Shown one piece after another: positions 6,775 to 9,256 of a stretch of 64,000 bases of DNA; position 1 is the first letter of the stretch; every line of letters starts with the position of its first letter. The stretch covers positions 186,001-250,000 of the forward strand of contig JAAXWQ010000002.1 of the NCBI GenBank assembly GCA_013335115.1. Direction: 5' to 3'. The position numbers and the translations under genes are program-made. The notes under the pieces are model-generated. The model was not told the DNA's origin. It saw only the letters and a list, made by a program, of their open reading frames with translations, and did not search any database. The DNA comes from Chlorobiaceae bacterium (GTDB taxonomy: Bacteria; Bacteroidota; Chlorobiia; Chlorobiales; Chlorobiaceae).

Positions 6775-6782
6775 GGGGGGGG

Positions 6783-6840
6783 AATGAAGAATGATGAATG
6801 ATAAGGGATGAATGATGAATGAAGAGGGATGAGGGATGAA
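6783..6840 (+). repeat. Left heptamer repeat array
   Basis: Degenerate tandem copies of a 7-base unit (GATGAAT/AATGATG) immediately after rlpA. The array is the reverse complement of the better-preserved array at 7293-7362 on the other side of the four-helix-bundle gene, so the two arrays form a long interrupted inverted repeat. Confidence 0.8.
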
Positions 6841-6895
6841 TTGCAAATCCATCAACATTCATTCATGATTAAAGTTACATGCAGTTACATGCACC

Positions 6896-7264
6896 GTGCA
6901 GCAGGATAATTCCCCGTACATTACCGGGCGAACGTTTCAGTTCGCCATTCGGATAGTTGCACTTTGCCAGTGCCTGGAAAAAGAGGGGGCTGTTTCTAAG
7001 GTGCTGTCAACTCAGCTGCTGAAATCAGGCACTTCTGTCGGGGCGAATGTAGAAGAAGCTCAGGCCGGGCAAAGTAAAGCTGACTTTACCGCCAAAATGT
7101 CCATAGCCAGAAAAGAGGCTCGTGAAACGAATTACTGGCTCAGACTACTGAAAGAATCTCAAATTTTACGATCAACCGACCTTGATTTCCTGCTTGAGGA
7201 GTCGGACCAACTGATTCGAATCCTGACCAGCATCGTAAAGTCCGCTCAAAAAAATAAGTGCTGA
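6896..7264 (+). CDS. Four-helix-bundle protein (S23 / 23S rRNA intervening-sequence family)
   Basis: A 122-residue, entirely helical protein of the S23 / four-helix-bundle family, related to proteins encoded in 23S rRNA intervening sequences and to Avd accessory proteins of diversity-generating retroelements. The characteristic stretch is LLKSGTSVGANVEEAQAGQS (about residues 42-61), then KEARETNYWLRLL. The start is a GTG at 6896 without a clear ribosome site. Here it is a free-standing gene with no rRNA, reverse transcriptase or variable region nearby. It is bracketed by inverted heptamer arrays, which suggests it sits in a small mobile or formerly mobile unit. Function unknown. Confidence 0.85.
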   Translation: MQQDNSPYITGRTFQFAIRIVALCQCLEKEGAVSKVLSTQLLKSGTSVGANVEEAQAGQSKADFTAKMSIARKEARETNYWLRLLKESQILRSTDLDFLLEESDQLIRILTSIVKSAQKNKC

Positions 7265-7292
7265 ATGGCGAATCACGCGATTCACAACTCAG

Positions 7293-7362
7293 CACTCATC
7301 ACTCATCATTCATCACTCATCATTCATCATTCATCACTCATCATTCATCACTCATCATTCAT
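7293..7362 (+). repeat. Right heptamer repeat array
   Basis: About ten near-perfect tandem copies of a 7-base unit alternating CATCACT and CATCATT, ending about 5 bases before the transaldolase stop codon. It is inverted relative to 6783-6840. There are no spacers, so it is not a CRISPR array. Confidence 0.9.
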
Positions 7363-9097: not shown

Positions 9098-9156
9098 GGT
9101 GGCTCCTGTATCTTCAGCTTTGCTGGTTAAAGTGGCTTCATTTAAACAAAAAAAAA

Positions 9157-9256
9157 GAGAGCAAGCTGACTATATCACACATTCACATTGCCGGATGCTG
9201 CTTCCTTCCGGATCTGACATGGTTGGGCAAGAGAATGTTGTATAGGACTTGCTCTC
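9157..9256 (-). ncRNA. ffs: Signal recognition particle RNA, small bacterial type (4.5S)
   Basis: A 100-base minus-strand gene. GAGAGCAAG at the 5' end (9248-9256) pairs perfectly with CTTGCTCTC at the 3' end (9157-9165). The apical domain carries the invariant SRP core: CAGATCCGGAAGG followed by AAGCAGC, with the GGAA tetraloop. A run of T (minus strand, about 9148-9156) follows the stem directly and would end transcription. The rest of the gap to trpS (9257-9442) holds no gene I can support. Confidence 0.93.

Follow-up and report, generated by a model that had tools for sequence, protein, structure and literature searches.

An IVP gene bracketed by inverted heptamer arrays in a Chlorobiaceae genome: a possible representative of a widespread cassette type with period-7 arms

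The window analysed here is a 64,000-nucleotide stretch of contig C1 of a Chlorobiaceae genome (G000). It contains, with an RlpA-type gene on one side and a transaldolase gene on the other, a unit of about 580 bases built around a gene for an intervening-sequence protein (IVP). Its parts are as follows.

6782 to 6841, plus strand: left heptamer array of the GAATGAT type (TRF, period 7, 8.6 copies)
6842 to 6895, plus strand: leader from the left array to the gene (sequence, TRF)
6896 to 7264, plus strand: IVP/S23 four-helix-bundle gene, 122 aa (TIGR02436 and PF05635 profiles, fold)
7287 to 7362, minus strand: right array, of the GAATGAT/GAGTGAT type on that strand (TRF, period 7, 10.9 copies)
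6782 to 7362, no strand assigned: whole cassette, with the IVP gene as the loop between the inverted arrays (RNA fold, shared architecture elsewhere)

The initial annotation had described period-7 arrays in opposite orientation around an S23-type gene. TRF and the profile matches confirm this layout, although the right array, put there at 70 bases, is a little longer (~76 bases). TRF gives the right array as the unit ACTCATC, which is of the reverse-complement type (88% matches, score 110), and finds the left array best also at periods 21 and 28, while in the leader AGTTACATGC is directly repeated (6873-6893). The gene has a GTG start as listed and its HMM alignment starts at residue 12. It is the only gene between the arrays, where neither a transposase nor a recombinase was found, and no rRNA family was matched at the element. 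The base pairing of the arrays that had been suggested was borne out by RNA folding: in the predicted structure both arms pair (-204.7 kcal/mol, z -7.7), and none of 100 dinucleotide shuffles matched the cassette RNA in stability. The same layout recurs at other IVP loci examined. Elsewhere in the window, a bacterial small SRP RNA lies at 9156-9254 on the minus strand.

The window genome has a second IVP gene (G000:C25:271654-271977) whose inverted arms consist of a different heptamer, AATGGAT. It also carries gene-less GAATGAT arrays at about nine further intergenic sites, several of them as inverted pairs. In 464 kb taken from four related genomes, strong period-7 arrays have a density of 0-2 per 100 kb and there are hardly any strong arrays with another short period, which speaks against a chance origin.

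With 94 bits against TIGR02436 (cut-off 24) and 77 bits against PF05635 (cut-off 33.8), the gene product clearly belongs to the family named "23S rRNA intervening-sequence protein". Its predicted model (pLDDT 90) matches the S23-family structure 2rld at a TM-score of 0.80-0.85 and also 2gsc, of the same family; both entries contain five chains, and XCC0516 has been described as a homopentamer (PMC4990558). The conserved core reads GTSxGANxEEA...SxxDFxxKxxIxxKEAxETxYWL, and the median dN/dS of 0.076 (123 pairs, which are related and not independent) points to purifying selection; broken copies are common. A defence or phage family was rejected, PADLOC and PHROGs having given no meaningful match. 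The Avd proteins of diversity-generating retroelements share the four-helix-bundle fold, but the Avd structures 4dwl and 8ub7 match the IVP model more weakly (TM 0.65-0.74, Foldseek E-values 0.09-0.4). A neighbourhood of the retroelement type was likewise rejected: the window IVP has no reverse transcriptase as a neighbour, and the one RVT_1 match of the genome lies on contig C19. At L251 (G000:C19), a reverse-transcriptase ORF follows a radical-SAM/SPASM-like gene, with a 3' part duplicated ~750 bases downstream. Weak TIGR02436 matches (positions 4-69) occur at many places in Chlorobiaceae within reading frames of ~150-300 aa, which probably represent a different, fused family.

To what extent the arrays are a general attribute of the gene was judged from 80 IVP loci of many phyla, in whose 250-base flanks periods 5-30 were compared. 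Of 159 flanks, 90.8% had a multiple of 7 as their best period; the figure was 15.4% for 1,261 windows taken from these loci and 15.0% when the windows were matched for GC. A lag-7 score of at least 20 of 28 was reached by 51% of the IVP flanks and 2.5% of the control windows; for the flanks of transaldolase, used as a control gene, the corresponding values were 15% with a multiple of 7 and 0% with a lag-7 score of 20 or more. Since these loci were fetched through the gene, they show the surroundings of IVPs and not the frequency of arrays without an IVP, which comes from pattern counts only. Chance or low complexity as the origin of period 7 is rejected by the shuffles, the control windows and the control gene. 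A supply of stop codons as the reason for the unit finds only a weak excess, with inward-strand stops in 72% of the arrays compared to 66% after shuffling.

The IVPs of Chlorobiaceae are mostly flanked by period 7, with heptamers that include TCAGTAA, GAGTGCT, GGCAGTT and GGTTCAA. In one cyanobacterial order IVPs are present in 145 of the 196 genomes sampled, and 88% of 136 cyanobacterial flanks have period 7. Plasmid IVPs, with identities down to 36%, have period-7 flanks at 12 of 12 loci; two phage records were not convincing. The plasmid genes (L253, L257-L260, L265) often lie within restriction or candidate defence operons, in contexts such as hsdS/hsdR, helicase/methylase and DUF1156/Swt1. 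Tandem runs often comprise 3-5 units and five are not always present. The sole clear departure from period 7 seen at IVP loci is L327 in the cyanobacterial genome G212, where octamers make up both arms (GGGGTGTA / GGGGTATA; lag-8 scores 26 and 27 of 28), which suggests that the arms change together. The flank comparisons thus show a period of 7 that is conserved across phyla and a heptamer that is not.

The 199 arrays fall into 84 heptamer classes. A universal consensus was rejected; there is a loose core in which one A is nearly fixed. Taken as reverse complements, the arms of one locus differ by a mean cyclic Hamming distance of 1.24, compared to 3.10 between loci and 3.37 when the arms are compared directly. 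Likewise, the arm-to-arm alignment score is 19 within a locus and 8.5 between loci. Both measures show that a locus has one heptamer, which runs in opposite directions in its two arms, with a minority of IVP loci having arms in direct orientation or one clear arm only. The heptamer also follows the protein lineage, as shown by pairs of IVPs whose neighbouring genes have no detectable homology: the median array-sequence score is 13 for pairs with at least 65% identity and 8 for pairs below 45%. The initial annotation had called for a search for related units at different loci, and such units were indeed found in several phyla with unrelated flanking genes. TGAATGA-like units recur in Desulfobacterota, Verrucomicrobia, Calditrichota, a spirochaete and Chlorobi next to proteins ~75-88% identical to one another, although single assignments may be wrong, several of the records being metagenome bins. 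They fit a transferable unit of gene plus arrays and would be expected from recognition and from co-inheritance alike.

A further correspondence concerns the arrays that have no gene. In 86 Chlorobiaceae genomes we searched for the patterns TGARTKA (type A) and GAYARTK (type B), counting overlapping pattern hits and not numbers of arrays in species that are not independent. Genomes with a type-A-flanked IVP have a median of 22.5 type A hits compared to 0 in those without, and the medians for type B are 56 and 2. Within the genus the p-values for types A and B are 0.008 and 0.009, which overstate certainty because species and pairs are not independent. Outside this family, Thiohalocapsa has 173 hits of its own TTTGAAG unit and none of TGAATKA, and a Verrucomicrobium has 59 TGAATKA hits and none of TTTGAAG. 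The counts show that arrays without a gene are spread through the genome of the resident IVP and have the heptamer that matches it. The state of the gene itself is a poor guide. G006, with a degraded IVP, has few arrays and is the sole type-A genome of its genus so poor in them, yet G011 has the most arrays of all in spite of a stop in its IVP; together with other broken type-A copies this means that gene integrity does not predict array number. Some genomes have many arrays without a detected matching IVP (for type B, e.g. G003, G008 and G017), and related genomes range from 0 to hundreds of array pattern hits.

Both components have been described before, each in its own context. The 23S rRNA intervening sequences of Coxiella burnetii and Leptospira encode the same protein family and form a hairpin from terminal inverted repeats. 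In Coxiella, tandem heptamers (GACAGAT) precede the S23 ORF and vary in copy number among strains (PMC4990558). The window element has stem-forming terminal inverted repeats too (predicted fold, z -7.7), but it lies between protein genes and not within an rRNA gene, both of its arms are arrays and many arrays are gene-less. When seven 23S and two 16S motifs were sought in 126 IVP loci, none was present, and an rRNA context for these loci was rejected. Intergenic heptamers, on the other hand, are known as GGGAATC in Xanthomonas, GGGGATT in Nostoc and TAACTGA in Beggiatoaceae and cyanobacteria (PMC4692102, PMC4679880). They are also arranged in tandem, often as inverted pairs, at places shared among relatives. 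Heptamer repeats are over-represented in many bacterial genomes, and these papers state that a detailed study or mechanism is lacking (PMC4692102, PMC4679880). The window arrays, tandem 7-base units according to TRF, conform to this description. They differ in that no cognate gene was named for the published heptamers, whereas here the arrays bracket an IVP gene and match its type. The STRR of cyanobacteria are comparable tandem 7-base intergenic repeats that often form inverted pairs. One IVP from a cyanobacterium, L333, has TAACTGA units (TCAGTTA when read on the opposite strand) in its flanks. A prior linking of heptamers and gene is limited, in the open-access literature searched, to one strain-level note, on Coxiella (PMC4990558). 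A general link was not found there; heptamers and IVP were known separately, and we regard the link and its pattern as new, with an earlier description possible in subscription papers or preprints.

Whether the unit moves had been raised by the initial annotation, which proposed that the unit could be a minimal mobile or RNA-processing element and took occurrence at the same locus in all relatives together with widespread gene-less arrays as speaking against mobility. The window unit is found at the same place in G006 (the degraded copy) and G011 and gene-less arrays are widespread, which by that standard argues against recent mobility at this locus. The unit is absent from G016, where the site is array-free but of other sequence and hence not a clean empty site, and no outer terminal repeat was seen at the window locus; this distribution fits gain or loss equally. 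Close relatives mostly keep the IVP at one site.

The cyanobacterium G165 has five IVP copies, 96-99% identical, at different places. In four of them the terminal inverted repeat is identical (AACTGACGTTACGCA...TGCGTAACATCAGTT) and the target duplication, 3 bp long, is exact (AAT, AAT, AGT, ACT). Two copies in G218 have the ends GGCTCTTC...GAAGAGCC and exact 8-bp target duplications (GTTTTATC, AATTTTAT). These duplications bracket outer MITE-like shells that enclose arrays and gene, the latter being broken in some copies. Judged by their ends, the copies in both genomes are transpositions of such shells, and they show that gene and arrays can reach new places, in two cyanobacteria within MITE-like shells. 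Since the target duplications lie at the outer shells, the arrays themselves are not demonstrated as moving ends. The proposal of a minimal mobile element holds in so far as the cassette is discrete and such cassettes move (G165, G218), but in these two genomes the mobile unit is the outer shell. The G062 pair was also examined for element ends and is of limited value for this, since one contig begins 29 bases before the match. Other observations bear on individual loci: G165 (L278, L297-L303), a genome of 4.2 Mb, has 17 IVP matches, several of which are broken by MITE-like insertions that carry heptamer arrays and no IVP, and at L212 in G001 the cassette adjoins the RlpA gene in the orientation opposite to that seen here, as though it had been flipped between its arms.

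In an alternative reading the cassette would not be mobile by itself and would travel as a passenger with MITE-like elements, with others or through horizontal transfer. Its arrays would grow by replication slippage and be kept alike through recombination among dispersed arrays, the hairpin simply being tolerated. MITEs are likewise short, dispersed and transposase-less with inverted ends, and the cyanobacterial copies resemble them further in their terminal repeats and in target duplications that are exact. That shells with 3-bp and 8-bp duplications enclose units, that gene-less MITE-like shells contain heptamer arrays too and that inheritance is vertical at many sites would all agree with a passenger, and slippage has already been proposed for heptamers (PMC4692102). 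However, the cassettes differ from MITEs in holding a conserved gene under purifying selection and in having period-7 arms without a fixed sequence, and at the Chlorobi loci neither outer MITE-like shells nor a visible outer terminal repeat were seen. Slippage, moreover, would account neither for a unit length of 7 that accompanies one gene family in different phyla, nor for the inverted arrays on both sides, nor for the agreement of dispersed arrays with the type of the resident IVP. We consider this explanation, the main rival, somewhat unlikely.

A different light is thrown on the arrays by the sites they occupy. For nine arrays without a gene we located the orthologous sites in three sister species. 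Of the 25 sites that could be used, 16 were periodic (14 of 21 or more), as against 5 of 138 other intergenic regions in these species (p 5.5e-12). The sister site usually has another heptamer than the window genome does: where G000 has GAATGAT, for instance, all three sisters have AATGGAT, and at a second site GAATTAT corresponds to GTTGATA in G010. The array is missing at some sister sites. An array may be rewritten where it stands, or particular places may take up arrays repeatedly; the data fit both. Two orthologous sites have period-9 arrays at or beside the heptamer site, L201 in G010 (orthologous to L037; GTCCATCAT GTCCACTTC GTCCACCAA...) and L205 in G016 (orthologous to L034; GGGGCTTAT GGGACCTAT AGGACTTAT...), and these may belong to a different system.

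Conservation of place with differing heptamers could mean that the host benefits from the hairpins, which might for example form 3' ends, act like terminators or insulate. Selection would then preserve the hairpin in position but not its sequence, and the IVP would be an RNA-binding protein of the host that makes use of it. It would be in keeping with this that many arrays, as read from the sequence, start at or beside the stop codon of the upstream gene, and that the IVP is under purifying selection and often fixed at one site. However, some sister sites are empty, array counts range from 0 to hundreds among related genomes, broken IVPs are common and the need for a hairpin does not demand a period of 7, so that a host function appears distinctly improbable. 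Finally, a chance or composition effect, or a plain rRNA-type intervening sequence as the family name would have it, merits hardly any credence, as the pattern is absent from shuffles, GC-matched windows and control genes and the element is without rRNA match, with none of the nine rRNA motifs in 126 loci.

The reading that we prefer is that the 580-base unit belongs to a widespread class of IVP cassettes in which the IVP ring recognises its own heptamer array; we give it a probability of roughly 45%. Three features favour recognition: the period stays fixed, the array sequence changes along with the protein, and arrays without a gene correspond in type to the IVP. We infer that the IVP probably binds its own array, a behaviour that the present comparisons do not separate from co-inheritance of gene and arrays. 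In such a mechanism the pentameric ring would bind the array with one subunit per heptamer, and its target could be the hairpin RNA or folded-back DNA. The TRAP ring, which binds regularly spaced triplets, offers an analogy. Self-recognition might allow the IVP to maintain or spread arrays in trans, gene-less hairpins would then behave as non-autonomous derivatives, replacement of the resident IVP would alter the heptamer at array sites, and the 23S rRNA intervening sequences could be copies that have landed in rRNA hairpins. To our knowledge, no class of elements is known that combines a fixed repeat length with free sequence, matched arms and differing units at sister sites.

Recognition by the ring may be taken one step further. 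If the IVP were the cognate protein of the heptamer arrays, with lineage-specific recognition of a unit spaced to its ring and with writing or spreading in trans at many hairpin sites of the chromosome, the arrival of a new resident IVP would lead to a new heptamer at the array sites, a little like telomere repeats that follow the template of telomerase. We regard this reading as unlikely on present evidence, but if true, it would give heptamer repeats, IVP cassettes and rRNA intervening sequences one origin.

IVPs are common proteins with solved structures whose function is not known, and the seven-base repeats of bacteria have long been unexplained. The pairing described here gives each a partner and ties the repeats to one protein family. 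This near-universal association predicts the heptamer to which a given IVP would bind and makes both questions directly testable, and it also suggests a source for the intervening sequences of rRNA.
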